From contig JAQXQS010000005.1 of NCBI GenBank assembly GCA_029101305.1, positions 1-35,977 on the forward strand: a stretch of 35,977 nt of DNA, given 5' to 3'. Numbering within the stretch: the stretch's first letter is position 1; each line of letters begins with the position of its first letter. The notes beneath the pieces were generated by a model. That model was not told the DNA's origin. It worked only from the letters and a program-made list of their open reading frames with translations, and did not search any database. The DNA comes from Clostridia bacterium (GTDB taxonomy: Bacteria > Bacillota > Clostridia > Lachnospirales > Lachnospiraceae). Both the position numbers and the translations under genes were made by a program. Below, piece after piece: positions 6,377 to 30,306 of the stretch.

Positions 6377-9046
6377 TTATTGTTCAAATACAATACGATA
6401 AATACCGCTTCCAGCTTCCGCAGCCATATAATCGGCTTCCTGGGTAAAGGTAAGTCCGTCGCTCTCTTTCACCAGTTTCGCTTCATCCAGACGGATCTGG
6501 GCCGTTGTATTTACCGGAATATGAACCGTCAGCACGATCTGTTTTCCCTGGACTTCCCATTTTACACCAACATTGCCATAAATGCTATGGTAATTTCCGA
6601 CAGTATATTCCAGGTTACCACCGATTCTCGGATAAAGGATCGCATGCTTAAAGCCTGGCTGATCCGGGTCAGCTTCAATTCCTGCCATTGCGCGGTACAT
6701 CCACTCACCGATCGCACCGTATGCATAATGGTTAAAGGAGTTCATATCTGCGCTCCACATGCTTCCATCATCCTTCAGTCCATCCCAGTGCTCCCAGATG
6801 GTTGTGGCACCTTTTTTCACCTGATACAGCCAGGATGGGAAATCCTCTTTCAGAAGCAGGTCATAGGCCTCTTTCAGGCTGTGATTCTGGCTGAGTGCAT
6901 GGCAGAAATACGGGGTTCCCACAAATCCGGTAACCAGATGGCCATTCTCTTTATCCAGAAGTTTTTTCAGACCTTCTACTGTCTTTTCAATATATTTCTC
7001 AGGTGTCAGCTGGAAATACAGAGCCACAATATGGGCAGTCTGTGTCTGGGCTGTCATATTTCCATCCTCATCAAAGAAGGTTTTCTGGAATTTATCTACG
7101 ATCTTATTGTAAAGTGCTTCATACTCTGCTGCCACATCCTCTTTTCCAAGTGCACGGGCCATTCTTACAAAAAGTCCAGTGGAATATGCATAGTATGCAG
7201 TACAGGTCAGGTCGTTTGGAGTGGCGCCGAAATAGCTGCCTTCCTCTGCGTCAAGTGCAACCCAGTCACCGAACTGCAGCTTGTAATTCCAGATATAATC
7301 CACAGCATGTGCACGCATGAAATCAATCCAGCCTTTCATGCTGTTGTACTGCTTTTTCAGAATATCCTTGTCGCCGTACATCAGGTACATGGTCCATGGG
7401 TTGATGATCGCTGCATCTGCCCAGGCTGCTGCGGAATGAGGTCCCTGGCTGAGAAGCCAGTTGCCATCTGTGCGTCCTTCCTCAATGTTCGGGATAACAT
7501 GGGGCACACCGCCCTCCAGTGTCTGGTCAACCTCCAGGTCGCGGAGCCATTTCTTATAGAATGTATAGGTATTCATCAGGTAAGTAGCTGTGCGGCAGAA
7601 AATCTGCGCATCGCCAGTCCAGCCCAGACGCTCGTCACGCTGCGGGCAGTCTGTAGGCACATCCAGGAAGTTGCTCTTAAGTCCCCACAGGAAATTGTGA
7701 TGAAGCTGATTCAACAACGGATTGGAGCACTCCAGGCTTCCGTTTGACGCCATATCGGAATGCAGTGTACATGCCGTAAAGTTCTCTGCTTTCGGTTCAC
7801 CTGGATAGGAAACGATCAGTGCATACTGGAAGCCCATATAGGTAAAGGTAGGATGCCAGGTCACGGTTTCTTCTTTTGCAAACGTATATTTCATGGTTGC
7901 CTTGGCTGCACGGAGGTTATCCAGATAAACATTTCCGTCTTTGTCCAGAACCTCGAAGCAGTGGAGCTCGATCACATCCCCTGGCTTTCCTGTTGCAGTT
8001 ACTTCAATACGGCCTGCCATATTCTGGGCAAAATCAATTACTGTATCTCCTGCTGGTGTTTTGAAGATTCGCTTTGCAGGAATGCGGTCCATTACATGTA
8101 CCTTGGCGCCATACTGCGCACGCATAACCTGAGTGTCAAAAAATACTAACTGTACCGGTTTCCAGTCCCCTTTTGGAATCTCAGCCTTAGACCAGTCCGG
8201 AATTTCCAGAGCCGCATCATAAGTTTCACCATCATAAATTTCGGCAAACACGACTGGTGAATCACAGCCCTTCCAGGAGGGATCTGTACAGATGGATTCT
8301 GTAGTTCCGTCGGTATAACGAACCAGGATTTCCATGGTAAAAGCAGTCTGGTCGCCATAGTTATTGCGTGCCTTTGTCAGTCCCATTACGCCCTTGTACC
8401 AGCCTGGAGCCAACATTGCACCTGCACCGTTGACACCTTTTTGCAGATACTCTGTTACATCGTAGGTCTGATAAAGAAGATGTCTTCTGTAGGAGGTCCA
8501 TCCAGGAGTCATCTCATCCTCGCCTACTTTTCTTCCATTCAGATAGAACTGATACAGACCAAGAGCAGTTGTAAATGCGTAAGCTTCTTTTACTTCTTTT
8601 TTGATTTCAAAGGTTCCTCTTACATAGGTTCCCTTGGAAACGCTTTTGTAGGAATCATCTGTTTCTGTAGATACGAAAGGTGCTTTCCACGCAGGTGCGC
8701 CTTCTTCCCATTCACCATGTTCCCCTGCAAGTGCAGTTACGAAGGAAGCTGTCTCACTCCAGTCCGTTTCTTCCTCACCGTCACTTACCTTTGCGCGGAC
8801 AAAATAACGTCTGCCGCTTTCAAGAGCTGCACCTTCCACATAAACATGTGCAGATTCCTCTGATTCAGTTTTGCCGCTGTCATAAATCAGTTCCGCAAAA
8901 GCAGGATCCTTGGCGATCTGAAGTTCGTAGAATTTCTGTTTTACATTTCTCTTATCACTTGTAAGCTCCCAGGCAAACTGGGGCATATGGGAAACGCCCA
9001 CCGGGGCAGTTTCATAATCCATGTAGATGTTCTTAATTGCCAGCAT
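6377..9046 (-). CDS. Intracellular alpha-L-rhamnosidase, GH78
   Basis: Hydrolyses terminal alpha-L-rhamnosyl residues from glycosides or oligosaccharides. The protein has 889 residues and no signal peptide, so it should act in the cytoplasm after uptake. It has an N-terminal fibronectin/Ig-like region (about 1-105), beta-sandwich domains (about 140-430), the (alpha/alpha)6 catalytic domain with the family signature DCPQRDERLGWTGDAQ at 466-481 and WEHW at 751-754, and a C-terminal beta domain. The acid/base residues expected for inverting GH78 enzymes are in these motifs. Start MLAIKNIYMD at 9046 is preceded by a GGGA-type site. It is the last enzyme gene before the kinase/transporter genes and follows the BKACE gene by 144 bp. 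A second, secreted GH78 is at 26680-30306. Linkage specificity is unknown. Confidence 0.95.
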   Translation of the reverse strand: MLAIKNIYMDYETAPVGVSHMPQFAWELTSDKRNVKQKFYELQIAKDPAFAELIYDSGKTESEESAHVYVEGAALESGRRYFVRAKVSDGEEETDWSETASFVTALAGEHGEWEEGAPAWKAPFVSTETDDSYKSVSKGTYVRGTFEIKKEVKEAYAFTTALGLYQFYLNGRKVGEDEMTPGWTSYRRHLLYQTYDVTEYLQKGVNGAGAMLAPGWYKGVMGLTKARNNYGDQTAFTMEILVRYTDGTTESICTDPSWKGCDSPVVFAEIYDGETYDAALEIPDWSKAEIPKGDWKPVQLVFFDTQVMRAQYGAKVHVMDRIPAKRIFKTPAGDTVIDFAQNMAGRIEVTATGKPGDVIELHCFEVLDKDGNVYLDNLRAAKATMKYTFAKEETVTWHPTFTYMGFQYALIVSYPGEPKAENFTACTLHSDMASNGSLECSNPLLNQLHHNFLWGLKSNFLDVPTDCPQRDERLGWTGDAQIFCRTATYLMNTYTFYKKWLRDLEVDQTLEGGVPHVIPNIEEGRTDGNWLLSQGPHSAAAWADAAIINPWTMYLMYGDKDILKKQYNSMKGWIDFMRAHAVDYIWNYKLQFGDWVALDAEEGSYFGATPNDLTCTAYYAYSTGLFVRMARALGKEDVAAEYEALYNKIVDKFQKTFFDEDGNMTAQTQTAHIVALYFQLTPEKYIEKTVEGLKKLLDKENGHLVTGFVGTPYFCHALSQNHSLKEAYDLLLKEDFPSWLYQVKKGATTIWEHWDGLKDDGSMWSADMNSFNHYAYGAIGEWMYRAMAGIEADPDQPGFKHAILYPRIGGNLEYTVGNYHSIYGNVGVKWEVQGKQIVLTVHIPVNTTAQIRLDEAKLVKESDGLTFTQEADYMAAEAGSGIYRIVFEQ

Positions 9047-9190: not shown

Positions 9191-9991
9191 TCAGCGCTTT
9201 CTCAGCTTCAGCATCTGTCTTGCTTCATCCGGGGTTGCAGGTTCCAGACCCATAGCGCGGATCAGATTTACCAGTTTCTCCACAACCTGCCAGTTATACT
9301 GGGCTTCAACTCCATCAGAAAGATAAGCACTGTCTTCAAAGCCAACACGCACTACTGTTGCACCCATGGCAATTGCAGCAGCCAGGAAGGTCCAATTGTC
9401 ACGTCCGAAATGAGTAACACCCCAAAGGGAATCTGATGGGACAAAAGAACGGAAAGCTGCCAGCATTTCCGGGGTTGGCTGCATACCGCCTTTATGTCCG
9501 AATACCAGGTTAAACAGCATCGGATCTGCAAATGGCTGCTCTCCTCTTACGATCTGCATATTATGGATCATTCCAATGTCAAATACTTCTGTTTCCGGAA
9601 GGATTCCTCTTTTATAAACTGCATCTGCACAATAACGGATATCATCAAAGGAATTGATGTATACGGCTTCTCCAAGGTTTGTGCTGCCACCATTCAGGGA
9701 GGCACTTTCTACCTTTGGATAATCCAGGGGATTGCAGCGGTCCTGGATATTCATGTCAGAAACACCACCTGTAGATGCCTGGACTACCACATCGGTACGT
9801 TTCAGGATCTCATCAAAACATTCAGACATATAAGTAATATCTGGAGTCAGGCTGCCATCTGGTTTTCTGCAATGAAGATGGCACATGGCTGCACCAAGCT
9901 TCACGCTCTTCTCTACATCTTCTGCAAGTTTTACTGCATCTACACTGGTTCCCGCCTGTACCGGAGCCAGGGATATGATTACTTTTCGCAT
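9191..9991 (-). CDS. BKACE family beta-keto acid cleavage enzyme (DUF849)
   Basis: Zn-dependent TIM-barrel enzyme of 266 residues. Characterised members (3-keto-5-aminohexanoate cleavage enzyme and relatives) condense a beta-keto acid with acetyl-CoA and release acetoacetate plus a new acyl-CoA. The metal ligands are visible as the HxH in CHLHCRKPDG (His38, His40), and the signature RVGFEDS near 216-222 carries the conserved glutamate. The ATG at 9991 follows GGGAGG. It lies 32 bp downstream of the DUF1537 kinase gene and clearly belongs to the same operon. No lysine-fermentation genes surround it, so the lysine-pathway substrate is unlikely; a beta-keto sugar acid or its phosphate made by the neighbouring enzymes is inferred. 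Family assignment is firm, substrate unknown. Confidence 0.88.
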   Translation of the reverse strand: MRKVIISLAPVQAGTSVDAVKLAEDVEKSVKLGAAMCHLHCRKPDGSLTPDITYMSECFDEILKRTDVVVQASTGGVSDMNIQDRCNPLDYPKVESASLNGGSTNLGEAVYINSFDDIRYCADAVYKRGILPETEVFDIGMIHNMQIVRGEQPFADPMLFNLVFGHKGGMQPTPEMLAAFRSFVPSDSLWGVTHFGRDNWTFLAAAIAMGATVVRVGFEDSAYLSDGVEAQYNWQVVEKLVNLIRAMGLEPATPDEARQMLKLRKR

Positions 9992-10023
9992 TTTATAAAC
10001 CTCCCATTGCGTTGCTATTTAAT

Positions 10024-11505
10024 TCAAATCAACTCTTCTACAATTTCTTTCAACGTAGCAACTTCCCCCACGTTTCCAGGGAAAATAATATAAGGCATTC
10101 CCGGGAATTTGCTTTCTTCCCCTGTCATCCACACCGGGATTCCTTTTTTCACCTGCCCCATAACACGGGCCTTCTTCACGCGAAGCGCCTTGGTTCCTAC
10201 ATCTGAGGATGTGATTCCGCCCTTGGCAATAATGAATTTGGGTTTCACAGAAAGCTTTCCAATAATACTTGTCACTGCATTGGAAATCTTTACGGAAATC
10301 TGCAGTTTTTCTTCCGGAGTCATATTCTCCGGGGCAAGAAGCTGTCTGCTTGTATAAATTACAACGGTTCTGCCAGACAGAATTTTTTCCTCTGCCGCTT
10401 TTACCGTTCTCTCTACCTCTTTTTCCAGTCCGTTTTCCTCAAATACGGTATTTACCTGGAATTCCATAAAATCAGCCTGTCCTTCAAGCTCCTTCAGACA
10501 GTTCAGCTGATCTGTGGTTTTCTTCACATGGGAACCGATCAGCACGATTCCCCCATTCTTGGTATCCCCCTCTAACTGCGTTCTTCCAAGAAGAGGCTGG
10601 TCAGACACACGGCCCATTACTTTTGTGAAAGCAGCTGCAGTTCTTGCCATATAATGTTTTCCCGCTTTCATGGCAAGGACAAGTGCTGCGCAGAATACTT
10701 TCAGATCTGCATAAGAAACTGCATTTACTATAATCTTCGCCATATTCTGTGCAGACATAAGCTTCGTCTTGATTCCCTGTACGTCCAATGCGTTTAATTC
10801 TTCCAGGGAAATAGAAATGCAGTCCTCTTTATGGTACTTTCCTTCCGTTTTTTCTTCCACATATTCTGTAAGATCAGATGATTTATAACCAAAGGTCTTG
10901 TCCTTGGCAAACTCTGTCATCCCGGCTGGAATCAGCTTGTCCTGCTCTTTTACATAATGGATGTTATCCATTGTATAACGGCCGCCTTCCGGGAAAAACG
11001 GGCAAAGAATTTCGCCATCTATCTCTAAGGTCACAGGATTTCTATCGCCTATATTTGTACAATTATTCTTATCTTTCCCAGTCTCCTCGTTCTGCATCAA
11101 TGTCTCTGCAAGCATTCTGGTTTCCAGTGGATAATGGCCTCTTAAAGTGGAATCGCCACGGGAAATGATCATAAAATCCTGTCCCAGTTCATCCGCTACT
11201 TTCTTCACCCTTTTTGCAATATCCTGGTGGACTCTGGTAGTTTCCTCCACGGAAAAGCTGCGGGAATTGGTAAGAATAAAGAACATGGATTCTTTTTCCT
11301 GGAATCCCTTGCGAATGGATTCTTCCTCCCAGTCTGTATAAACGGACACATCATGAACAGTCTGTACACCGGTGGGATCGTCATCCAGTACCACCAGTTT
11401 TTTATGAAAACCCTCCATCGCCTGGGCAAGAAGAGCTTCTGCTTTGTTCTCATCCGTTTTGGTTTTTTCTTCTATGGTTGTAAAGGGAATGATCTTATAT
11501 TCCAT
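10024..11505 (-). CDS. Four-carbon acid sugar kinase family protein (DUF1537)
   Basis: ATP-dependent kinase of the DUF1537 family, 493 residues. Known members phosphorylate D-threonate, D-erythronate, 3-oxo-tetronates or 3-oxo-isoapionate. The N-terminal substrate-binding domain contains the family signature VVLDDDPTGVQTVHD (about residues 35-49), and the C-terminal nucleotide-binding domain contains KGGITSSDVG and the closing FPGNVGE. Start at 11505 follows GGAGA. It lies between GH127 (48 bp upstream) and BKACE (32 bp downstream). None of the usual partners (a dehydrogenase, OtnI/OtnC-type isomerase/decarboxylase, or PdxA2) is in the window, so the standard tetronate pathway is not complete here. 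The pairing with BKACE suggests a phosphorylated beta-keto sugar acid as intermediate; that is inference. Confidence 0.9.
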   Translation of the reverse strand: MEYKIIPFTTIEEKTKTDENKAEALLAQAMEGFHKKLVVLDDDPTGVQTVHDVSVYTDWEEESIRKGFQEKESMFFILTNSRSFSVEETTRVHQDIAKRVKKVADELGQDFMIISRGDSTLRGHYPLETRMLAETLMQNEETGKDKNNCTNIGDRNPVTLEIDGEILCPFFPEGGRYTMDNIHYVKEQDKLIPAGMTEFAKDKTFGYKSSDLTEYVEEKTEGKYHKEDCISISLEELNALDVQGIKTKLMSAQNMAKIIVNAVSYADLKVFCAALVLAMKAGKHYMARTAAAFTKVMGRVSDQPLLGRTQLEGDTKNGGIVLIGSHVKKTTDQLNCLKELEGQADFMEFQVNTVFEENGLEKEVERTVKAAEEKILSGRTVVIYTSRQLLAPENMTPEEKLQISVKISNAVTSIIGKLSVKPKFIIAKGGITSSDVGTKALRVKKARVMGQVKKGIPVWMTGEESKFPGMPYIIFPGNVGEVATLKEIVEELI

Positions 11506-11553
11506 ATTTATAAATTCTCCATTCTGAATCTTTACTTTTTTGAGAGGCAGCTT

Positions 11554-13515
11554 TTATACTGTATACGCAATCGGGAACCAGATCCGCATCTCGCCGTAAT
11601 CACGGTTATCCCACGCATAATAAGGGATCAGGCGTACCTGTTTCCTGCCCATACCGTGATATTTCAGCGACTGGTACAGGGCATTTCTGTCGAATTCAGA
11701 ACGGTCAATGGCATATTCTTCTGTTTCCAGAGCTGTCATTTTTCTTCCCTGGATCTCGTACTCCACAGGAGTAAATTCTGCATTCAGATCCAGATAAATA
11801 TCATCCAGAGTGGCCGCCTGTGTATCCACACTTTCACAGCAGTATACCAGCGGTCCACGCTCGATTGCTGCCTGTCCCACGGTTTCCTCCACCATGTTAT
11901 TGGCAACTGTATAGCGGACTTCCATATCCAGATTCAGCTGTACATCCATATTCTGTGGATCTTCCACCAGAATATCCAGATAAGTTCCTGCATCCTCTTT
12001 TGCAAGCCCCCGGTCTACTGCCCCACCTTTGATGGAACCACCTGCTGCCCAGCCTGGGACACGAAGTCTCAGATGAACCGGTGCATTTACTTTCACATCT
12101 TTTGTAGTGAAATGAATCGCTCCATCAAAAGGATAATCTGTAGACTGAACAAGTGTAAATTCACCACCGTTTTCCAGTTTCACCTGTGCCTCACTTGCAC
12201 CGTACATACCAGTCCATACGCTGTTATCAGAGGTCAGGTATGCATATTCGCTGGACTGCGCAATGGTTCTTGCCAGGTTTGGAGGGCAACAGTAGCTGAG
12301 AATGTATTCACTTCTGGTAAGGGGCCAGATCAGCTTATAATCAAGCTCTTTGGCACGTCTTAACATATTTTCATAGAAAAATCTCTTCCCATCCAGGCTA
12401 AGTGCAGCCAGATTGGTATTTAACATCATGCGCTCAAGAATATCGAAATACTCTGCCTTCGGCTCCAGCTGGAACATACGGTATGCCCAGAAAACACCGC
12501 CAAGAGACGCACAGGTCTCATTGTATGCAGTAATATTCGGAAGCTGATATTCATAACCATAAGCCTGATGTACAAGCTGGTGGTCAAAGAAATATCCATA
12601 GGGAGATGCTCCGTTGTATAGCGCTCCACAGCCACCGGTAATATAAATTTTTTTATCCACAAGGCTTCTCCACACTTTGTGGAGTACTTCCATATAATCA
12701 GGATCCTCCTCTTCCAGACAAAGATCCGCTACGCCTGCATAGAGATAGTTGGCACGCACTGCATGGCCAAGAATCTTCTCGTGCTGTTTCAGCGGAATTT
12801 TATCCTGATTATCATCCATACCGTTTTTCACACTATCGCGAAGAGCGATTGCCTGTTTCGCAAGCTTCAGATAACGTTTGTCACCAGTAGTACGGTACAT
12901 TTCCACAAGTCCCATATAGTGAGATGGGCAGACTGCGGTCTGCACTTCCCCGGTGCGCTCTGCCTCTTCATAAAGATGCTCCAGATAGTCTGCTGTTTTT
13001 GCTGCAATGGCAAGGAAATTATCTTTTCCGGTAATTCTCTTGTGTACGCAGGCAGCGGTAAACATATGTCCGAAATTATAGACCTCGAAATCGTTAATAT
13101 CTCCCATTCTGGAAACACCGTTGCCGCTTCTTTCCCCAATGATCTGCTTAGTGGAAAGGTATCCGTCCGGCTGCTGTGCCCTGCCGATCAGGTCTATGTA
13201 ATCCTCAATTTCGTCCTTCAGCTGCCGGTTATCTGTCTGATACGCTGTATAGATGGCAGATTCCATCCATTTATAAAAGTCTCCGTCGCCGAAAACGGTT
13301 CCGTCAAAGTCTCCCTGTGCATCCCCTGCACAGATTTTAAAATTCTCTACTACATGGCTGATATCCTTGCTGTCAAACATGTGCTTCAGCTGGGGCACTG
13401 TGCTGTTGGCGCAGGTATCAAAGCGCTCCTTCCAAAGACCGCCTGTCCATTTTACTTTCATTCCGTCAAGGGCGTGAACCTTTGCGTATGGGGATCTGGT
13501 TGTATCTGTAAGCAT
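11554..13515 (-). CDS. GH127 family glycoside hydrolase (beta-L-arabinofuranosidase-like)
   Basis: Retaining, Zn-dependent glycosidase of 653 residues, close to the size of characterised GH127 enzymes. The cysteine nucleophile cluster CC at 409-410 (YCCPPN) and the acid/metal ligands E333 and C335 (NETCAS) match the Glu/Cys/Cys-Cys zinc site of Bifidobacterium HypBA1. The (alpha/alpha)6 barrel spans about 1-430, followed by beta-sandwich domains. No signal peptide, so it is cytoplasmic. The family cuts beta-L-arabinofuranosides; one GH127 member has been reported to release aceric acid from rhamnogalacturonan II, which matters because acid-sugar enzymes follow in this operon. The ATG at 13515 follows AAGGAG. 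It lies 48 bp from both neighbours. Specificity within the family is not resolvable by eye. Confidence 0.92.
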   Translation of the reverse strand: MLTDTTRSPYAKVHALDGMKVKWTGGLWKERFDTCANSTVPQLKHMFDSKDISHVVENFKICAGDAQGDFDGTVFGDGDFYKWMESAIYTAYQTDNRQLKDEIEDYIDLIGRAQQPDGYLSTKQIIGERSGNGVSRMGDINDFEVYNFGHMFTAACVHKRITGKDNFLAIAAKTADYLEHLYEEAERTGEVQTAVCPSHYMGLVEMYRTTGDKRYLKLAKQAIALRDSVKNGMDDNQDKIPLKQHEKILGHAVRANYLYAGVADLCLEEEDPDYMEVLHKVWRSLVDKKIYITGGCGALYNGASPYGYFFDHQLVHQAYGYEYQLPNITAYNETCASLGGVFWAYRMFQLEPKAEYFDILERMMLNTNLAALSLDGKRFFYENMLRRAKELDYKLIWPLTRSEYILSYCCPPNLARTIAQSSEYAYLTSDNSVWTGMYGASEAQVKLENGGEFTLVQSTDYPFDGAIHFTTKDVKVNAPVHLRLRVPGWAAGGSIKGGAVDRGLAKEDAGTYLDILVEDPQNMDVQLNLDMEVRYTVANNMVEETVGQAAIERGPLVYCCESVDTQAATLDDIYLDLNAEFTPVEYEIQGRKMTALETEEYAIDRSEFDRNALYQSLKYHGMGRKQVRLIPYYAWDNRDYGEMRIWFPIAYTV

Positions 13516-13563
13516 GGTTGTTCTCCTTAATTCTGATAAAAATCATTATGTATATAAATTATT

Positions 13564-14229
13564 TTATAATCCCTTAGCCTTCAGTGCAGCAGCAAGTGCC
13601 TGGGCACCAAACCGCGGGCTGGAAAGTACCGGTTTGCCGATTTTCTCATGAATTGCATCTTCTGCATAAGCCATAGAGCCCTGTGCCAGAAGAATTACAT
13701 CTACCTGATCTGCAATCTCTGCTGCTTTTCCACAAAGTAAAGCTTTAAACTTGTCCTGATCTGCGCCGAACGCATCTACCAGTCCATCTACCAGCTCTAC
13801 ATGCTTATTCATTTCTCTTGCAACACGTGCAACTGTATTTTTCGTCGGTTCAAGAGTGGTAGGAAGAGTGGCAAGTACGCCTACCCGAAGTCCCAGGCGG
13901 GCTGCTTCACGGCACATTTCCTCATCAATACGCACAATAGGGATTCCGGTATAACGTCCGATACTCTGCGCTGCATCTGCAACCTCTCCTACTGAAGAAC
14001 AGCAATTCAGAATTGCATCAGCTCCGTCGGAAACAGCCTGCATATACATGCCAACAAGGCGGGCTGCTGCTCCGGCAGTTACATAGCCATGTTCTCTTAC
14101 CTCTGCCAGAATAGACGGATCCTGATAATTCAAAATCTCCGGTGCATCGCCCAGATTCTTTCTGATTTCTTCATTCACGCACTCAATTAATTCCGGTGTG
14201 GTACTTGTGTAAACAATTCCTAATTTCAT
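13564..14229 (-). CDS. Asp/Glu racemase superfamily protein lacking the second catalytic cysteine
   Basis: A 221-residue protein with the two-lobed Asp/Glu/hydantoin racemase fold (KLGIVYTSTTPELIE at the start). The first active-site region is DAILNCCSSVGEV with Cys76/Cys77. The equivalent of the second catalytic Cys, usually in a GCT/GCG-type turn, reads LLAQGSMAY near 181-189, so the cysteine pair needed for two-base racemisation is missing. An isomerase, lyase or decarboxylase role, as in other single-Cys members, is more likely than racemisation. It is the first gene of an operon with GH127, the DUF1537 kinase and BKACE, and has its own promoter candidate. The ATG at 14229 follows AAGGAGA. 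Substrate is inferred to be a sugar acid related to that pathway; not established. Confidence 0.8.
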   Translation of the reverse strand: MKLGIVYTSTTPELIECVNEEIRKNLGDAPEILNYQDPSILAEVREHGYVTAGAAARLVGMYMQAVSDGADAILNCCSSVGEVADAAQSIGRYTGIPIVRIDEEMCREAARLGLRVGVLATLPTTLEPTKNTVARVAREMNKHVELVDGLVDAFGADQDKFKALLCGKAAEIADQVDVILLAQGSMAYAEDAIHEKIGKPVLSSPRFGAQALAAALKAKGL

Positions 14230-14493: not shown

Positions 14494-14539
14494 AAACGGG
14501 ATTTCACAAGCATGATACCGCCATGTAAAATCCCGTTTT
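14494..14539 (-). terminator. Terminator after the FGGY kinase gene
   Basis: An 11-bp perfect inverted repeat (AAACGGGATTT / AAATCCCGTTT at 14494-14504 and 14528-14538) with a 23-nt loop lies 54 bp past the kinase stop. The minus-strand stem ends in CCCGTTTATAAATA. It separates the isomerase/transketolase/kinase operon from the next one. The rest of the 363-bp gap (14230-14592) holds the promoter candidate listed above and AT-rich sequence with no gene. Confidence 0.65.
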
Positions 14540-14592: not shown

Positions 14593-16068
14593 TTATTTAT
14601 TCGTAATCACCGACGCTACCGCTTTCTTCCATCCAGCATACTTCTTTTCCCGTTTCTCTGCATCCATAGCCGGTTTGTAAGACACACGGTTCAGTTTGCC
14701 AAAAATCCTTTCATCCCATACCCCAAGACGAAGTCCTGCCGCGTAAGCCGGTCCGATTGCGGAAAGCTCTTCAGAGTCCGGAACCAGTACACCTGCGTCC
14801 GCAATATTACTCTGGAACTGCATCAGGTAATCATTTCTGGTGGGGCCGCCGTCTACACGAAGTTCCTTAACCGGAACCCCAGCATCCTCTGCCATTGCCA
14901 GCACTACATCTGTGATCTGGTAAGCAATACACTCTACTGCTGCACGTACAAACTCTGCCTTGCGGGTAGTACGGCTCATTCCTACTACAGAAGCTCTTGC
15001 TTCACTATCCCAGTAAGGTGCGCCAAGACCACTGAATGCCGGAACCAGGTACAGGTTATCTTCCTGAATAGCCTCTTTTGCCAGTTTGCCAGTTTCACCT
15101 GGGGAAGAAATAAGCTGGAGGTCATCTTTCAGCCATGTGATAACCGCGCCTGTGTAATTCAGGTTTCCTTCCAGGACATAATTTACCTTGCCGCCGATTT
15201 TCCATGCAAGGGAAGTTACAACTCCATGAGTGCTGAGGGTTGGTTTTTCCCCGATATTCATCATAATGGAGGAGCCTGTTCCATAGGTAGCTTTTGTCAT
15301 GCCAGGCTGAAGGCAGCCCTGTCCGAAAAGAGAACCATGGGAATCACCAAGCACACCGTGAATCGGTACTTTCTTCGGGAGAAGTCCCTCGAAGTCGGTC
15401 TCACCAAAGCATGCATCAGAGTCTGTCATCTCAGCCATATTGGCCGGGTCAATGCCAAACAGCCCACAGATTTCCTCATCCCATTTCAGGTCAAAGATGT
15501 TAAAAAGCTGGGTTCTGGATGCATTGGAATAGTCTGTTCTATATTCTTTTCCCCCAGTCAGCTTGTAAACCAGCCAGCTGTCGATGGTTCCATGGCAGAT
15601 TTCATGGCGTTCTGCCGCTTCTTTAGCGCCTTCTTCATTTTCCAGAAGCCAGGCAATCTTAGATGCCGGGAAATACGGAGAAAGATTCATACCTGTTTTC
15701 TGGCGGATCATTTCTGCTGCACCGGCTTTCTCTACACGGGCACAGATATCCACTGCACGGGCACACTGCCATACCACTGCATTTCCGTACGGTTTGCCTG
15801 TAATCCGGTTCCATGCAAGAGAAGTCTCACGCTGGTTGCTGATTCCAAGACCAACTACGCATTCTTTGTCAACACCCTCCAGAAGTTCTTTCACAACAGC
15901 CAGTACATTGCTGTAAATTTCCTCCGGGTCATGGGAAACCCAGCCTTTTTCATTGATGATCTGTCTGTGCGGGCGGTCAGTACGGCGCATGATACTGCCA
16001 GTCTCATCGAAAAGAAGTGCCTTGGTCCCCTGGGTACTCTGGTCGATACTTATGATATATTTTGCCAT
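14593..16068 (-). CDS. FGGY-family sugar kinase (glycerol/xylulose-kinase-like)
   Basis: ATP-dependent kinase of 491 residues with the FGGY two-domain fold. The N-terminal phosphate-binding loop reads YIISIDQSTQGTKALLFD, the substrate loop includes NQRETSLAWNR, and the second nucleotide-binding lobe contains TKATYGTGSSIMMN and the family signature around VKELRVDGGPTRNDYLMQFQ. A GTG seven codons upstream is possible, but the ATG at 16068 has AAAGGGGA seven bases before it and gives the canonical N-terminus, so I use it. Closest in style to glycerol kinase, but its place after an isomerase and a split transketolase argues for a ketose substrate; D-apulose is the leading idea (see findings). It is the last gene before a terminator. 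A structured RNA candidate lies in its leader. Confidence 0.9.
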   Translation of the reverse strand: MAKYIISIDQSTQGTKALLFDETGSIMRRTDRPHRQIINEKGWVSHDPEEIYSNVLAVVKELLEGVDKECVVGLGISNQRETSLAWNRITGKPYGNAVVWQCARAVDICARVEKAGAAEMIRQKTGMNLSPYFPASKIAWLLENEEGAKEAAERHEICHGTIDSWLVYKLTGGKEYRTDYSNASRTQLFNIFDLKWDEEICGLFGIDPANMAEMTDSDACFGETDFEGLLPKKVPIHGVLGDSHGSLFGQGCLQPGMTKATYGTGSSIMMNIGEKPTLSTHGVVTSLAWKIGGKVNYVLEGNLNYTGAVITWLKDDLQLISSPGETGKLAKEAIQEDNLYLVPAFSGLGAPYWDSEARASVVGMSRTTRKAEFVRAAVECIAYQITDVVLAMAEDAGVPVKELRVDGGPTRNDYLMQFQSNIADAGVLVPDSEELSAIGPAYAAGLRLGVWDERIFGKLNRVSYKPAMDAEKREKKYAGWKKAVASVITNK

Positions 16069-16092
16069 TTTTGCTATCCCCTTTATCACTAT

Positions 16093-16202
16093 TCAAAAAA
16101 CAACAAGCGTGCCTGACCAGGTATGCTCTGCTGTCGATTTCCGATCTATCAGCAACAGAACATACCCAGGAGCTGCATTTATTGCAGTCTGTCAGTCACG
16201 CT
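16093..16202 (-). ncRNA. Candidate structured leader RNA ahead of the FGGY kinase
   Basis: Read on the minus strand, 16202-16106 folds by eye into a three-way junction. P1 is AGCGTG-A-CTGAC pairing GTCAG-G-CACGCT. P2 is CTGCA/TGCAG with a 5-nt loop. P3 is a long arm: GGTATG/CATACC extended by TTCTGTTG/CAGCAGAG and capped by a small GAT/ATC stem. The P1 3' strand is followed at once by TGTTGTTTTTTG, a terminator-like U-tract 25-37 bp before the kinase ATG. This could be a riboswitch or attenuator, or simply an elaborate intercistronic terminator. I do not recognise it as a known class: no T-box, lysine, glycine, purine or cobalamin motif is visible. Confidence 0.45.
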
Positions 16203-16240
16203 AAAGCTTGTTTTGTTATTCACTTTTTACCACTTCTCCG

Positions 16241-16300
16241 CGAGTGTATTTGAAAAAAACTTTCACCAATCTGCACACTCACTTTGCAGGAAATTTTGCC
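16241..16300. repeat. Diverged partial copy of the 162-bp inverted-repeat element
   Basis: Shares long blocks with the right end of the element at 30509-30670 in opposite orientation (TTTGAAAAA, CAATCTGCAC, ACTTTGC, ATTTTGCC), roughly three quarters identical by eye. It starts at the base next to the transketolase C-subunit stop codon. Only the terminal part of the element is recognisable. Confidence 0.5.
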
Positions 16301-17233
16301 TTATTTCAAAGCTTCCACAGCCTTCTTCGCAATTCCCTCAGCATTTAATCCATAATAATCAAATACTTCCTGGGAGGTTCCTGTGATAACTGGTGCATCC
16401 GGAAGTGCCATGTTCAGCACCTTCTTCGGGCAGTTAGCACCAACTACCTGTGCAACCATGGAGCCAAGTCCGCCGAACGGAGCATGCTCTTCAACGGTGA
16501 TCACTGCTTTCGCATTCTGTGCTGCTTTGATCACACCGTCTGCATCAAGAGGTTTCACACAGTACATATCCAGTACTGTTGCGGAGATTCCCTGTGCTTC
16601 CAGTAATTTGGCAGCTTCATTTGCCGGGCGGACCATCTCACCGCAGGCAATGATCGCTACGTCTGTTCCTTCTCTGAGAACAGTTGCCTTGTCCATTTCG
16701 AATGGGCAGTTATCTTCTGTATAAATGTCCTCAACCGGATTTCTTCCTACACGGATGTAAGCCGGTTTCTCATCTTTTAACAGAGCCTCGATCAGGTGCT
16801 TGGTCTGATGACGGTCACTTGGAAGATAAACTCTCATGTTCGGGATTGCAGACATGGCTGCAATATCCTGTGCGGAATGATGGCTCATTCCCAGTGCGCC
16901 GTAGCTTACACCACCGCTGATACCGATCAGGGTAACATTTGTGTTGGAATATGCAACATCAATTTTGGCCTGCTCATAGCTTCTTGTAGATAAGAAGCAG
17001 GCTGGTGAGCATGCGAAAGGCTTCTTTCCACATTTTGCAAGACCTGCGGAAATACTTACCAGGTTCTGCTCTGCGATACCAGTCTCAACGAACTGATCCG
17101 GGAAATTATCTGCAAATGGTGTCATGGAAGCAGATCCTCTGGAGTCACTGCAAAGCACCATAATATCTTTGTCTTCTTTTGCCTTGTCCATCAGTACTTC
17201 ACAGATGGCCTGTCTGTTTGGAATCTTATTCAT
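16301..17233 (-). CDS. Split transketolase, C-terminal (pyrimidine-binding) subunit
   Basis: Carries the TPP-pyrimidine and C-terminal domains of a transketolase, 310 residues. Visible features are the catalytic GIAEQNLVSISAGLA (TPP-activating Glu) and a C-terminal domain (VITVEEHAPFGGLGS). I choose MNKIPNRQA at 17233 over an upstream in-frame start at 17281, because an AAGGAGGCC site sits 7 bp before it and the upstream codons lie inside the partner gene. It overlaps the N-subunit gene by 8 bp, indicating translational coupling and an equimolar complex. The pair transfers a two-carbon ketol unit between sugar phosphates. Given the isomerase upstream and the ketose kinase downstream, it may act on a dedicated substrate such as apulose-4-phosphate rather than pentose-phosphate intermediates. 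That substrate is an inference. Confidence 0.92.
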   Translation of the reverse strand: MNKIPNRQAICEVLMDKAKEDKDIMVLCSDSRGSASMTPFADNFPDQFVETGIAEQNLVSISAGLAKCGKKPFACSPACFLSTRSYEQAKIDVAYSNTNVTLIGISGGVSYGALGMSHHSAQDIAAMSAIPNMRVYLPSDRHQTKHLIEALLKDEKPAYIRVGRNPVEDIYTEDNCPFEMDKATVLREGTDVAIIACGEMVRPANEAAKLLEAQGISATVLDMYCVKPLDADGVIKAAQNAKAVITVEEHAPFGGLGSMVAQVVGANCPKKVLNMALPDAPVITGTSQEVFDYYGLNAEGIAKKAVEALK

Positions 17234-18059
17234 GAAGAGTGGCCTCCTTTCTTGCTGCAAAATCCGCGATGATCTGATCATATTCTTCCTGGGTAGGAAC
17301 CTTATGATGCCAGTTTGCCTTGTTCTCCATTACGGAAGAGCCGCAGCCTTTTACGGTATTTGCAATTACAGCGGTTGGTTTGCCTTTAACAGTTTTTGCT
17401 TCTTCAAAAGCAGCATTTAACTGGTCAATGTCATTACCATCTTTTACATCGATCACATGCCATCCGAAGGAACGGATACGCTCGCACAGATCATCATGTC
17501 CCATTACATCTTCTGTATTTCCGGAAATCTGAAGGCGGTTACGGTCAACGACTGCGCAAAGATTATCCAGTTTATACTGATGTCCAGCCATGAAGCCTTC
17601 CCATACAGAGCCTTCTGCCAGCTCACCATCACCCATTACGGTGTAAACACGGTAGTCTCTGTTGTCTTTTTTGCCAGCCAGAGCCATACCTACGCAGACC
17701 GGAAGTCCATGTCCAAGGGAACCAGAGTTCATCTCGATTCCTGGAAGCTTGTTGTTCGGGTGTCCGATATATTTAGAACCAAATTTAGAAAAATGCTCTT
17801 TTACATCTTCAAGATCCAGGAAGCCTTTTGCTGCAAGTACTGCATAATAAGCTTCTACAGAATGACCTTTGCTCAGTACGAAACGGTCACGGTTCGGGTC
17901 ATCCATGTTTTCCGGAGAGATGTTCATCTGGCAGAAATACAGGCTAATCAGAGTATCGATCACACTCATGTCACCGCCGATGTGTCCGCCCTTTCCGGCA
18001 ACGATGATATCTACAGTATCTTTTCTTAAATCAAAAGATTTTGCCTTTAAATTTTCCAT
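17226..18059 (-). CDS. Split transketolase, N-terminal (TPP-diphosphate-binding) subunit
   Basis: TPP-binding subunit of a two-gene transketolase, 277 residues. The TPP motif is GDGELAEGSVWEG followed by NLCAVVDRNRLQISG (about residues 146-183). The N-terminus shows the usual KGGHIGGDMS and SKGHS signatures with the conserved His. There are two candidate starts: 18065, whose ATG overlaps the isomerase stop as ATGA but has only 1 bp after the AGGTG site, and 18059, which has 7 bp. I prefer 18059 (MENLKAKSFDLRKD). It forms an operon with the isomerase upstream and the C-subunit downstream. Split transketolases are common in Clostridia. The operon placement suggests a specialised role separate from central metabolism; this is inferred. 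Confidence 0.92.
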   Translation of the reverse strand: MENLKAKSFDLRKDTVDIIVAGKGGHIGGDMSVIDTLISLYFCQMNISPENMDDPNRDRFVLSKGHSVEAYYAVLAAKGFLDLEDVKEHFSKFGSKYIGHPNNKLPGIEMNSGSLGHGLPVCVGMALAGKKDNRDYRVYTVMGDGELAEGSVWEGFMAGHQYKLDNLCAVVDRNRLQISGNTEDVMGHDDLCERIRSFGWHVIDVKDGNDIDQLNAAFEEAKTVKGKPTAVIANTVKGCGSSVMENKANWHHKVPTQEEYDQIIADFAARKEATLHE

Positions 18060-18061
18060 TC

Positions 18062-19462
18062 TCATTCACCTCTTAAATATGCTTTCACATCTTCTTCAAT
18101 AGGATCATATAAATCAGGAGTGATTCCCATATATTTGCATGCCTCATAAAGTACCGGAACTACATCCTTATGGATACCTACACAGTGATGGATGTATGGT
18201 CCCTCTACGATCTTGGCTTCCAGACGTTTGATGTTCTCTACCTCAACCCAGAGATAAGTTCCCATTCCTTTCGGTCCGTCAACGCCTTTGGCTTTTCCAA
18301 GAAGCATGGAGTACTCTCCGTTATCACCGTCGAAACGTGCCAGAGTTACTTCGCCATGTTTTGCTTCTGCTGTAATACTTCCCGGATGGCTGAATGCCAG
18401 CGGATAAGTAAGCTTCGGTGTCTCTTTTGCAACAGAGATCGGCCATGGTCCACAATGCTGAAGGAGCTCACCGTTCTCAATATCAGGATGACGGATGGTC
18501 CAGTCAGCGAAGAAGCTTCTGGTATCATCAAGTGCTGCTGCCTCAACAAGAAGAGCTGTAATAGCACCGTGGATATCTGTCTCGCAGACAACCGGGATTC
18601 CTTCTTCGTTCAGAAGGGCATTTGCTGCACATGGCATAATTCCGATTTCACTCTGTAACTGGTTCCAGCACTGGATTGCAGCTGCCTGGCAGCCATATTT
18701 TGTAATCAGGTTTTTCATAGCAACCTTAAGAGCTGCTACATTTTCAAGCTCGTTGTCTTTGATGCAGATTTCCATATGCTCGCGGCAGTATTCTACAACC
18801 TTGGCAACCTCTGTTCCTTCTGCTTTGGCTTTCTTCATCTCATCTGTCAGCTCTGGCATTGGGATCGGAGTCAGCTGGATGTTGAATTTCTCCAGAAGCT
18901 CACCCTCGTTGCACATGGTTGACCAGAACTCATATGGTCTTGTGGAAATCTGAAGGATTCTCATATTACGGAAGGTTTTTACTACATTACAGACAGCCAT
19001 GAAATCGCGAAGGCCACGCTCGAATACAGGGTCGTTCAGTCTGCAGTTGGTCATGTATGTAAATGGAACGCGGAATCTTCTAAGTACTTTACCTGTTGCG
19101 AAAAGTCCGCACTGTGTATCACGGAGACGTACGCCGTTCTCATCCGGACGCTCATCAAGAGGTCCCCACAGAAGAACCGGTACATTTAACTCTTTTGCAA
19201 GTCTTGCACACTCAAACTCTGTTCCGAAGTTACAGTGTGGAAGGAAAAGTCCGTCGATTTTCTCTTTTTTGAACTTCTCTGCGATCTTGATGCGGCCTGC
19301 CTCATCATACAGAAGTCCTTCATCATTTACATCTGTGATATCTACAAAATCAATTCCTAACTCTCTTAATCTGTCTGCAGTAAGTCCACGATACTTTACT
19401 GCATCTGGTGCACTGAAAATGCTTCGTCTGGTTGGCGCGTAGCCGATCTTAATGTTTGCCAT
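18062..19462 (-). CDS. L-fucose/L-arabinose isomerase family protein
   Basis: Probable aldose-ketose isomerase of the fucose-isomerase-related superfamily (COG2407-like), 466 residues. Recognisable features are the N-terminal NIKIGYAPTRRSIF, the RLAKELNVPVLLWGP stretch in the first Rossmann-like domain, and a C-terminal domain with LLQHCGPWPIS and HHCVGIHKDVV. Characterised relatives are Mn-dependent. The ATG at 19462 has AAGGAGG 8 bp upstream. It is the first gene of the isomerase/transketolase/kinase operon and lies divergent from lacI, with an operator-rich gap between them. The substrate is not an obvious rhamnose, fucose or arabinose, because the matching aldolase or epimerase is absent; a branched or rare pentose such as apiose fits the neighbours best. 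Family call is firm, substrate is inference. Confidence 0.85.
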   Translation of the reverse strand: MANIKIGYAPTRRSIFSAPDAVKYRGLTADRLRELGIDFVDITDVNDEGLLYDEAGRIKIAEKFKKEKIDGLFLPHCNFGTEFECARLAKELNVPVLLWGPLDERPDENGVRLRDTQCGLFATGKVLRRFRVPFTYMTNCRLNDPVFERGLRDFMAVCNVVKTFRNMRILQISTRPYEFWSTMCNEGELLEKFNIQLTPIPMPELTDEMKKAKAEGTEVAKVVEYCREHMEICIKDNELENVAALKVAMKNLITKYGCQAAAIQCWNQLQSEIGIMPCAANALLNEEGIPVVCETDIHGAITALLVEAAALDDTRSFFADWTIRHPDIENGELLQHCGPWPISVAKETPKLTYPLAFSHPGSITAEAKHGEVTLARFDGDNGEYSMLLGKAKGVDGPKGMGTYLWVEVENIKRLEAKIVEGPYIHHCVGIHKDVVPVLYEACKYMGITPDLYDPIEEDVKAYLRGE

Positions 19463-19581
19463 TCTGGGTGTCCTCCTTGTATTTTATAATTTTTATAGTT
19501 TCTGATTTTTAAGCTTCAATTGAATTTTTTTCTTGCAATTCATCTTTTTTGATACTTTCGTATTTGCTTTTCTTTGATTCT

Positions 19582-19610
19582 AGTATATGGCTCTTTGTAC
19601 TTTATTTCTA
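19582..19610 (-). promoter_or_regulatory. Candidate promoter of the isomerase operon
   Basis: Minus strand: -10 TATACT (19587-19582), 17-bp spacer, weak -35 TAGAAA (19610-19605), about 120 bp before the isomerase ATG. The -35 falls inside the palindrome at 19598-19624, so a protein bound there would directly block or recruit RNA polymerase. Confidence 0.4.
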
Positions 19611-19650
19611 TATAAAATAAAGTATTTTCCACTTTATTTTTACTTTATTT
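19598..19650. promoter_or_regulatory. Operator-like array: palindrome plus direct repeats of ACTTTATTT
   Basis: TACTTTATTT (19598-19607) and its perfect complement AAATAAAGTA (19615-19624) form a 27-bp palindrome with a 7-bp spacer. Two more direct copies of ACTTTATTT lie at 19631-19639 and 19642-19650, 11 bp apart, about one helical turn. The array is in the divergent lacI/isomerase gap. Likely binding sites for the LacI-type protein or another regulator; the binding protein is not known. Confidence 0.5.
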
Positions 19651-19662
19651 ATTGTGAATATA

Positions 19663-19692
19663 TTGTTTATTTTTCAATTAAGAAGTACAATA
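19663..19692 (+). promoter_or_regulatory. Candidate promoter of the lacI-type gene
   Basis: TTGTTT (19663-19668), 18-bp spacer, TACAAT (19687-19692), about 114 bp before the ATG. Downstream, in what would be the leader, are GCATCAA (19723-19729) with its complement TTGATGC (19767-19773), and a 10-bp direct repeat ATGCAACATA (19734 and 19770, 36 bp apart). These could serve autoregulation. A TTGACA at 19709-19714 has no good -10. Confidence 0.35.
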
Positions 19693-19805
19693 TATACAAT
19701 AATTCACTTGACAGATACGCCGCATCAACGAAATGCAACATATTTTGAAGGTTCGCTTTGAACAATTGATGCAACATAGTAAATTTCCCGGGAGGTGTCC
19801 ATAAA

Positions 19806-20813
19806 ATGTCCATTACCGCAAAAGAACTGGCCCAGAAGCTGAAGCTTTCCCAGACTGCCGTCTCCATGGCTCTCAATAACAAGCCCGGAGTCAGCACAGA
19901 AACCCGGCGTATGGTGGTGGAGGCAGCTGAGAAGTACGGCTATGACTTTACCAGACTTTCCTTAAAGAAAAATAAAGCAGGAAGTATTTACGCGGTAAGT
20001 TACCGTTCCCACAACGCCATTATGTCCTACTCTCCTATTTTTGACGCAATGGTAGAAGGAATGGAATCCATGGTCCAGAAGAATAACTACAAGCTGAAGG
20101 TGATCACCTTTTATGAAAAAAGAGACAATCTGGAACATTATCTGGAAGACCTTCGGACTACAGACTGCGTAGGACTTATCCTGTTTGGAACAGAAATGCG
20201 TGAAGAAATGGTACGTCCTTTCCTAAAGCTGCCTTTCCCGGTGGTAATCCTGGATGCCTATTTCGAGAATCTGGATTGTACCTATGTTGTTCCAAACAAC
20301 CGACAGGGTGCTTACCTGGCTACGGACTATCTCATCAGCCGTAGGATGAAGCAGCCAGGATATCTGCAGTCCACCTATCCGCTCCGGAACTTTTCCGAGC
20401 GTCTGGAGGGCTTCTACCATGCAGTCCATGATAATGGAATGTCACGCTCCCGCTGTGTCATTCACCAGCTTTCCCCTACCATCGACGGAGCAATGGCAGA
20501 TATGCTGGCTGTGATCGATCGTGGGGACGCACTGGCAGACTGCTATTTCGCAGACAATGACCTGATTGCTATCGGAACCATCAAAGCACTGAAGCTTCGT
20601 GGGTATAAAGTCCCGGAACAGATAGCGATCGTAGGCTTTGATAATATTTCAGAAGGCCGGATCATTGACCCTTCCCTTACCAGCATCAGTATCCCACGCC
20701 ATTATATGGGCCAGGTTGCCGCAAGGGAATTGTTGTCACAGATTGATGCCCCGCAGCAGCATACCTGTAAAATTGAAGTTTCGGCAAATTTGGTAAAGCG
20801 TTTCTCGGTTTAA
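19806..20813 (+). CDS. LacI-family transcriptional regulator
   Basis: DNA-binding repressor/activator of 335 residues. The N-terminal helix-turn-helix with hinge is SITAKELAQKLKLSQTAVSMALNNKPGVS (residues 2-30), followed by a periplasmic-binding-protein-like effector domain (about 62-335) ending with typical VGFDNISEGRIIDPSLTSI. The ATG at 19806 follows GGGAGG. It is transcribed divergently from the isomerase operon, separated by 343 bp rich in inverted and direct repeats, so it most likely controls that operon and itself in response to a sugar or sugar phosphate. The effector is unknown. Confidence 0.93.
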   Translation: MSITAKELAQKLKLSQTAVSMALNNKPGVSTETRRMVVEAAEKYGYDFTRLSLKKNKAGSIYAVSYRSHNAIMSYSPIFDAMVEGMESMVQKNNYKLKVITFYEKRDNLEHYLEDLRTTDCVGLILFGTEMREEMVRPFLKLPFPVVILDAYFENLDCTYVVPNNRQGAYLATDYLISRRMKQPGYLQSTYPLRNFSERLEGFYHAVHDNGMSRSRCVIHQLSPTIDGAMADMLAVIDRGDALADCYFADNDLIAIGTIKALKLRGYKVPEQIAIVGFDNISEGRIIDPSLTSISIPRHYMGQVAARELLSQIDAPQQHTCKIEVSANLVKRFSV

Positions 20814-29600: not shown

Positions 29601-30306
29601 CGATACAGAGGCAGCTTACGCAACACCTCTCCGCTATGGTGTATTTAATGAAGAAAACGAAGCAAAAGCAGTAGAAAACTATGTTGAAACTGTAAAAGCA
29701 GCCGGTTACACCATTACCTCTGGTTTCTCCGGAACTCCGAACCTGGTTCCTGTACTGACAAAATATGGTTACACAGAAGAAGCTTACAAGCTGTTTGAGC
29801 AGACAGATTATGCTTCCTGGCTGTATCCGGTAACCCAGGGTGCAACCTCCGTATGGGAGCGTTGGAATTCCTACACTGTAGAGGGTGGCTTCAACGGAAA
29901 CAACTCCATGAACTCCTTCAACCACTTCTCTCTTGGCGCAATCTCCGAGTGGATGATGGCTTACCAGCTTGGTATTACAAGAGAAGACGGACAGGCAGGT
30001 TACAAGAGCTTTGTATTACAGCCAACTGTTGGCGGCACCTTCACCTATGCAAATGGTTCCTATGATTCCAACTACGGAACAATTTACAGCGGATGGACTG
30101 CAAACGACGGCGTTATGGAAACTTACACCGCTACTGTTCCTGCAAACACAACTGCTACTCTTTATCTTCCAATTTCCGAGGAGCAGGCAAATGCTACTAC
30201 CGCTCCGAAAGGTGCTACATTTGTAGAAATGACAACACACAACGGAACTACCTGCGCAGTTTATACACTGGAAGCTGGAAGCTATGAATTTACAATTGGG
30301 GCATAA
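26680..30306 (+). pseudogene. Secreted GH78 alpha-L-rhamnosidase interrupted by one amber codon
   Basis: A single continuous reading frame of 1208 codons broken only by TAG at 27067-27069 (codon 130). The N-terminus (MKKRNLVQKSVTFALTAVMA, cleavage near PVMAAED) is a secretion signal, unlike the cytoplasmic GH78 at 6377-9046. After it come a fibronectin-like domain ending at the stop, then a carbohydrate-binding-like region, beta domains and the catalytic barrel with TDCPQRNERLGWTGDAQ (Asp at codon 762) and VWERW (Glu at codon 1060). The frame beyond the TAG is intact for 1078 codons. Alignment with the paralogue puts a Trp about where the TAG lies, so TGG to TAG is the simplest origin. It could be a recent nonsense mutation, an assembly error or a suppressed codon. 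An internal start at 27193 would make an unsecreted protein. No cell-wall anchor is seen. Confidence 0.85.

Follow-up and report, generated by a model that had tools for sequence, protein, structure and literature searches.

A candidate D-apiose catabolic operon with an isomerase of the arabinose/fucose-isomerase fold in a genome of the Lachnospiraceae

The non-oxidative pathway for D-apiose, a rare plant sugar with a branched chain (MetaCyc PWY-8089), comprises an isomerase (ApsI), a kinase (AplK) and a transketolase of two subunits (AptA/AptB). The genes aplK, aptA and aptB have been named in Escherichia coli SE15, and strains of E. coli and E. fergusonii with a cluster of the SE15 type grow on D-apiose (PMC13001218). 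Here we analyse four genes at positions 14593 to 19462, on the minus strand, of a 35,977-nucleotide stretch of DNA, the whole of which we call the window, from a clostridial bacterium of the Lachnospiraceae that degrades plant fibre (contig JAQXQS010000005.1 of assembly GCA_029101305.1, the source genome). Read from 19462 downwards, they encode an isomerase, the N-terminal (TK-N) and C-terminal (TK-C) subunits of a split transketolase, and a kinase of the FGGY family. An initial annotation, made from the sequence alone, had taken this set of genes to resemble an apiose route, a reading that is strengthened by the grouping of both transketolase subunits with AptA/AptB and by the residues that the kinase shares with AplK. 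We consider it probable that the four genes form a D-apiose catabolic operon that works by the transketolase route.

The kinase and the two transketolase subunits have homologues in the described pathway, with which they share diagnostic residues, and the same type of transporter lies beside the module in some relatives. By contrast, the isomerase of the operon belongs neither to the TIM-barrel type found in the apiose-type clusters L117, L255 and L256 (loci are numbered with the prefix L), which we take, without proof, to be ApsI, nor to the pair of short-chain dehydrogenases/reductases (SDR) of SE15. The regulators differ as well, the SE15 cluster having a sugar-binding regulator and the window a LacI-family one. 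An isomerase of the same superfamily occupies the corresponding place in the transketolase-kinase clusters for apiose on plasmids of Rahnella, Sodalis and Klebsiella and in Yersinia, Citrobacter and other genomes, where it is labelled 'L-fucose/L-arabinose isomerase family protein' or 'fucose isomerase'. With AraA and FucI the operon isomerase shares the fold and four metal-site residues at 12-17% identity, but the operon contains no AraB, AraD, FucK or FucA partner. Finally, the sulfoquinovose pathway (SqvD, SqwGH, SqwI) likewise combines an isomerase of a related family with a split transketolase, whereas a kinase is present only here.

Transketolase, kinase and isomerase of the operon

All four reading frames are open, and the overlaps of 4 bp between the isomerase and TK-N genes and of 8 bp between TK-N and TK-C agree with the initial annotation; a gap of 232 bp separates TK-C from the kinase gene. 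A family scan identified neither an aldolase nor an epimerase among the four genes, in line with the earlier remark that an aldolase is missing.

The closest ties to the apiose pathway are those of the transketolase. TK-N (17226..18065, minus strand), the putative AptA-like subunit of an apulose-4-phosphate transketolase, matches Transketolase_N with 175 bits and is 42% identical to AptA of SE15, while TK-C (16301..17233, minus strand), the putative AptB-like subunit, matches Transket_pyr (109 bits) and Transketolase_C (117 bits) and is 37% identical to AptB. For TK-C the ATG at 17233, preceded by AAGGAGG, was preferred over the listed start of the open reading frame (ORF) at 17281. In a tree of 65 split pairs, left after 12 near-duplicate or partial ones had been dropped from 77, a single group with an SH-like approximate likelihood-ratio (SH-aLRT) support of 99 unites 24 pairs from apiose clusters, 21 window-type pairs (three of them, L229, L230 and L233, from loci without this isomerase) and row L198; the 19 other split transketolases, including a second one of the source genome (L234), fall outside. 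A D-S motif of the C subunit is found in 46/46 members of this group vs 0/19 of the others, which have D-L or D-I, and an H-H motif, likewise present in all 46, is not found in 17 of the 19. This grouping and the D-S motif identify the split transketolase as orthologous to AptA/AptB, in the comparison that the initial annotation had proposed for both subunits.

The kinase (14593..16068, minus strand; FGGY_N 208 bits, FGGY_C 126 bits), whose start was placed at the ATG at 16068 with its ribosome-binding site rather than at the listed GTG at 16089, is 38% identical over its full length to AplK of SE15 and belongs to a glycerol-kinase-like family. Positions 246 and 270 of E. coli GlpK, which we take to line the glycerol pocket, are S/S in 21/21 window-type and 9/9 apiose-cluster kinases, but Q/F in 13/13 glycerol kinases (S/S in 0/13), and position 269 is S in 21/21 window-type and 8/9 apiose-cluster kinases. 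The glycerol-kinase rows of this comparison were taken from 12 chosen loci, where an ORF with 'GDQ' was required and all 12 passed; the module kinases of L039 and L042 are outside the set because a simple gene caller missed both. One difference from the apiose-cluster kinases is Y135, which the operon kinase keeps where they have L or M. In the kinase tree a single group holds the 13 glycerol kinases, and the operon kinase is placed beside them, not among them; the 30 remaining kinases, window-type and apiose-cluster together, join at 92/82 in a first tree (one row dropped) and at 71 in a smaller tree (15 rows dropped) made with the approximately unbiased (AU) test. Clustering with glycerol kinases, which the initial annotation had named as a refutation, does not discriminate, because AplK is itself glycerol-kinase-like: that of SE15 scores 490 bits on the glycerol-kinase subfamily model NF000756 (cut-off 498). 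In the proposed comparison of the kinase the pocket residues favour a predicted apulose kinase, while the tree alone does not settle the deep branching.

The isomerase (18062..19462, minus strand; ATG at 19462 after AAGGAGG), our candidate for the conversion of D-apiose to D-apulose, has the fold of the arabinose/fucose-isomerase superfamily, although its only Pfam match, to Fucose_iso_C, is sub-threshold (25.8 vs a cut-off of 29.3). Its residues E294, D320, H336 and H425/H426 lie opposite E306, E333, H350 and H449/H450 of AraA, presumably the metal ligands of that enzyme, in an alignment whose hhalign probability is only 16% and which is to be read together with the fold. At least 7,126 relatives were scored, the best 120 of which are 72-98% identical, and the named close homologues among the matches listed are mostly from Lachnospiraceae. 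The isomerase of the enterobacterial apiose clusters is a remote relative from the same superfamily and forms a separate clade in the tree; that of Rahnella (L115, 7559-8977) is surrounded by genes close to those of the cluster type tested for growth. With this remote relative as query, it adjoins AptA, AptB and AplK in 72/80 loci; with AptA as query, it fills the isomerase slot in 4/10 enterobacterial genomes, and in the other AptA clusters drawn the first-step slot is taken by a TIM barrel or a pair of dehydrogenases, or contains nothing that was recognised. Neither the isomerase search nor the TIM-barrel search listed a record with the name D-apiose isomerase, and in the open-licence literature searched we did not find this isomerase class reported for D-apiose, a statement by which we claim no priority. 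Once regarded as the weak link of the apiose reading, the isomerase can now be assigned a fold and has a counterpart in other apiose clusters; D-apiose would be its substrate.

In L054 (6793-15300) both isomerase branches occur within 9 kb, alongside RpiB and a pair of XylB-like kinases, and a triose-phosphate isomerase and a split transketolase follow just downstream.

Conservation of the module and associated genes

Around relatives of the isomerase with at least 43% identity, 30 loci were fetched from draws at the level of the genus, the order and the phylum. Isomerase, TK-N, TK-C and kinase stand in one stretch in 22 of them (17/20 in a first set, 5/10 in a second), so that the grouping of the four genes is more than chance. 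A LacI-family gene is present in all 22, which include L049, where transporter genes precede the kinase; the eight exceptions are L054, L055, L057 and L074 to L078. In the phylum draw an isomerase relative (E up to 1e-60) was found in 11/398 genomes, the source genome included.

Transporter genes provide a further association, which, like all those between the module and other genes reported here, is uncorrected for relatedness. In locus L072 the binding protein encoded beside the module is identical to PDB 5ibq at 208/286 positions. The Rhizobium etli protein of 5ibq was reportedly solved with alpha-D-apiose in this entry and with ribose in 4ry0; we use the ligand as a lead only. Nine of 13 apiose-cluster loci (L115 to L119, L172, L255, L256 and L258) match 5ibq at 71-82%, the match of L117 covering 65% of its length, and the binding protein of the SE15 apiose cluster matches at 49%; the identities are 58-60% in the module loci L049, L056 and L070 and 56% for a copy in the source genome, which lies on another contig with a DUF2291 gene, an ATPase and a permease. 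When 98 related genomes were surveyed for binding proteins of this type (E up to 1e-50), 13 had one, all with the module, as against 0/73 genomes without it (Fisher p 1e-9); the survey scored at most 21 candidates per genome, so that absences are not firm. In 5/13 genomes no more than about 5 kb separate the gene from the module; in one the distance is about 60 kb, and in the rest the gene is on another contig.

Similarly, within the genus, the apiosidase family PF13204 occurs in 19/24 module-bearing vs 4/36 other genomes (p 2e-7), whereas glycoside hydrolase (GH) family 28, used as a control, occurs in 6/24 vs 5/36 (p 0.32). Most PF13204 matches are weak (33-76 bits, cut-off 26.5), and when matches above 240 bits alone are counted the ratio is 6/24 vs 1/36 (p 0.013). 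Module-bearing genomes were defined here by an isomerase at least 70% identical alone (two of them partial); the binding-protein survey adds genome G060.

Some further loci deserve mention. In L229 (3734-8049), where no isomerase was seen, a zinc alcohol dehydrogenase and a further ABC (ATP-binding cassette) transporter for sugars come after the module kinase and a transketolase, an arrangement that perhaps represents a route from a sugar alcohol; the transporter of L231 is of the same type. The source genome carries, at the edge of contig C175 (L232), a second copy of the module kinase, with 92% identity across 54% of its length, which adjoins an alpha-L-fucosidase and a carbohydrate esterase.

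Proposed pathway and alternative substrates

From the families and gene order observed, from the conservation of the module and from the fold, the kinship and the AptA/AptB/AplK residues we infer the substrate and each of the following reactions, which are reportedly those of Carter et al. 2018. Apiose, whether imported or set free within the cell, would be isomerised to D-apulose by the product of the first gene, a metal-dependent isomerase. The glycerol-kinase-like FGGY kinase would then phosphorylate one CH2OH group of apulose, a molecule that resembles glycerol bearing a glycoloyl group at C2, to apulose 4-phosphate. From this the two-subunit, thiamine-diphosphate-dependent transketolase would move the C2 ketol unit to glyceraldehyde 3-phosphate, and xylulose 5-phosphate and dihydroxyacetone phosphate would be the products, by which the sugar would enter central metabolism.

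Several observations weigh against a D-apiose operon. Identity between the operon isomerase and that of the enterobacterial apiose clusters amounts to only about 27%, and relatives at 57-61% identity (L054, L055), both inside the clade of module isomerases, adjoin XylB-like kinases, with a SIS-domain protein and dehydrogenases as further neighbours. Conversely, L229, L230, L231 and L233 carry the module kinase without this isomerase, three of them with transketolase genes: kinase and transketolase are accompanied by the zinc alcohol dehydrogenase in L229 and by an SDR in L230, the kinase of L231, at which the contig starts, by a same-sized gene without annotation, and in L233 the core is present with neither kind of dehydrogenase seen. 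The operon kinase scores as a glycerol kinase on NF000756 (583 bits, cut-off 498), though below the equivalog model TIGR01311 (572 bits, cut-off 590), whereas the module kinase of L072 passes both NF000756 and the stricter TIGR01311 (634 vs 590), and the AU test does not reject a union of window-type and glycerol kinases against AplK (p 0.50). Moreover, the binding protein in the apiose-type clusters L080, L081 and L082 is a different one (31-33% identity to 5ibq), the transporter of L072 is adjoined by a ribokinase and a ribose pyranase, both above their cut-offs, and a PfkB-family kinase stands beside the transporter copy of the source genome. Because of these ribose-type neighbours the linked transporter may carry ribose, a fair alternative, and the evidence from transporter synteny is weakened by the ribose genes of L072 together with the different binding protein of L080, L081 and L082. 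The L054 and L055 isomerases with other kinases and the cores without this isomerase leave room for a related substrate.

It is conceivable, though unlikely, that the same chemistry acts on another ketose, the isomerase making it from some other pentose or branched sugar; kinase and transketolase would then form a general module for ketoses, fed from several sugars by different first steps. In its favour are the four cores without this isomerase, the close isomerase relatives with other kinases and a transporter that also fits ribose; on the other hand, the AptB and AplK diagnostic residues are present in every core row examined, and the first step varies among apiose clusters themselves. Metabolism of aceric acid (3-C-carboxy-5-deoxy-L-xylose), which would be isomerised to a ketose that the transketolase cleaves to give a 2-oxo acid, seems very improbable. 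Aceric acid has a tertiary alcohol like apiose, the downstream GH127 gene is closest to an aceric acid hydrolase, and GH127 is commoner in module-bearing genomes (10/24 vs 4/36); yet the ketose formed would have no CH2OH next to the branch, the assumed target of AplK-type kinases, and since GH127 is absent from 14/24 module-bearing genomes and has conserved partners of its own, aceric acid was dropped as the substrate of the operon.

There is next to no likelihood of a sulfoquinovose transketolase pathway of the SqvD/SqwGH/SqwI type, which also employs isomerases and a split transketolase, even though a sulfoquinovose isomerase model is the only NCBIfam match of our isomerase. The score of 106 bits compares with a cut-off of 700 for that SftI model, and no sulfosugar genes were recognised among the neighbours scanned. 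According to PMC11659671, no kinase acts in the sulfoquinovose transketolase route, whose transketolase has RAFDR in place of RSFHR. The operon transketolase keeps S and H at the positions taken to correspond (RSFHR), and this, the isomerase score and the presence of a kinase led us to reject the pathway; our transketolase tree contained no SqwGH sequences, and the comparison was made with no model for SqwI or SqvD. That the kinase is a second glycerol kinase in a fortuitous neighbourhood, with isomerase and transketolase serving ordinary pentose metabolism, would agree with its score above the subfamily cut-off (and that of the L072 kinase above the equivalog cut-off), with the deep root left unsettled by the AU test and with the 232-bp gap before its gene. 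We nevertheless think this highly improbable, given the replacement of Q246 and F270 by S in all 21 window-type kinases, the module found together in 22 of the 30 loci, and a separate, true GlpK elsewhere in the source genome (64% identical to that of E. coli). The rhamnose, arabinose and fucose routes were rejected as well, on the lack of an aldolase or epimerase in the operon and on the 42-67 bits that the kinase reaches on the rhamnulokinase, ribulokinase and fuculokinase models.

Neighbouring genes and rhamnogalacturonan II

Upstream of the operon, a LacI-family regulator gene (19806..20813, plus strand; Pfam), which is kept in module loci, is transcribed divergently. The AT-rich region between them (19463..19805) contains several inverted repeats and is likely the promoter/operator of the operon and of the LacI gene, although promoter-like sites in it were not above those of shuffled sequence. 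Within the operon, the stretch between TK-C and the kinase (16069..16300, minus strand) is predicted to be structured (RNA fold z-score -3.4), with a long hairpin followed by a T run; it is single-copy in the source genome and had no Rfam match at the gathering threshold. In L049, whose kinase is the nearest to the operon kinase in the tree, transporter genes occupy the position of this gap. A near-perfect 15-nt inverted repeat (93%) at 14494-14538, between the kinase and the following racemase-family gene, is possibly a terminator or operator.

Downstream of the operon follow, on the minus strand, genes for an Asp/Glu racemase-family protein (13564..14229; Pfam PF01177), a GH127 enzyme (11554..13515), a DUF1537-type acid-sugar kinase (10024..11505; SBD_N and NBD_C in Pfam), a beta-keto acid cleavage enzyme (BKACE; 9191..9991; Pfam) and a GH78 alpha-L-rhamnosidase (6377..9046; family scan). 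Beyond these lie the genes of a sensor and its paired regulator, of a binding protein and of an ABC permease. Another GH78 alpha-L-rhamnosidase gene, larger than the first, is found at 27193-30306 (plus strand), with sensor, regulator and binding-protein genes between it and the LacI gene. The GH127 gene mentioned in the initial annotation encodes a product that resembles an aceric acid hydrolase more than it does the solved beta-L-arabinofuranosidases: its closest solved structure is 5mqo (514 bits, the next 321), which we take to be the aceric acid hydrolase BT1003. On the aceric acid hydrolase model NF049879 it reaches 754 bits, below the cut-off of 950. Relatives of this GH127 were found in 14/98 related genomes. 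Of 15 places outside the window, 12 loci were fetched, short contigs included, and in these the DUF1537 kinase adjoins GH127 in 12/12, the racemase-family protein in 11/12 and BKACE in 10/12; a TRAP transporter occurs in four of the loci and a GntR-family gene in five, one member of each being annotated. We therefore regard the gene set at 9191-14229 (minus strand) as a candidate aceric acid catabolic operon. A GH127 gene, 31% identical to that of the window, is also found near the rhizobial apiose-type cluster with a TIM-barrel isomerase in L117 (10616-12532).

Both apiose and aceric acid occur in rhamnogalacturonan II, and the locus probably serves this polysaccharide. Whether the window serves both of its branched sugars, with a D-apiose operon of an unreported isomerase class and a neighbouring candidate pathway for aceric acid, is more doubtful, and we offer this wider reading tentatively. 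If it is true, apiose isomerisation arose at least three times, in the TIM barrel and in two branches of the arabinose/fucose isomerases, besides the dehydrogenase pair of Escherichia. We know of no catabolic route for aceric acid, and among the titles listed from the open-licence literature none dealt with its breakdown; with the neighbouring gene set, what becomes of this sugar is directly testable.

For the Lachnospiraceae, the D-apiose operon proposed here names a concrete set of genes by which members of the family could use apiose. It also offers a candidate first-step enzyme for those apiose clusters that have neither the TIM-barrel isomerase nor the dehydrogenases of Escherichia, and it serves as a warning that a search for a single isomerase family misses apiose users.

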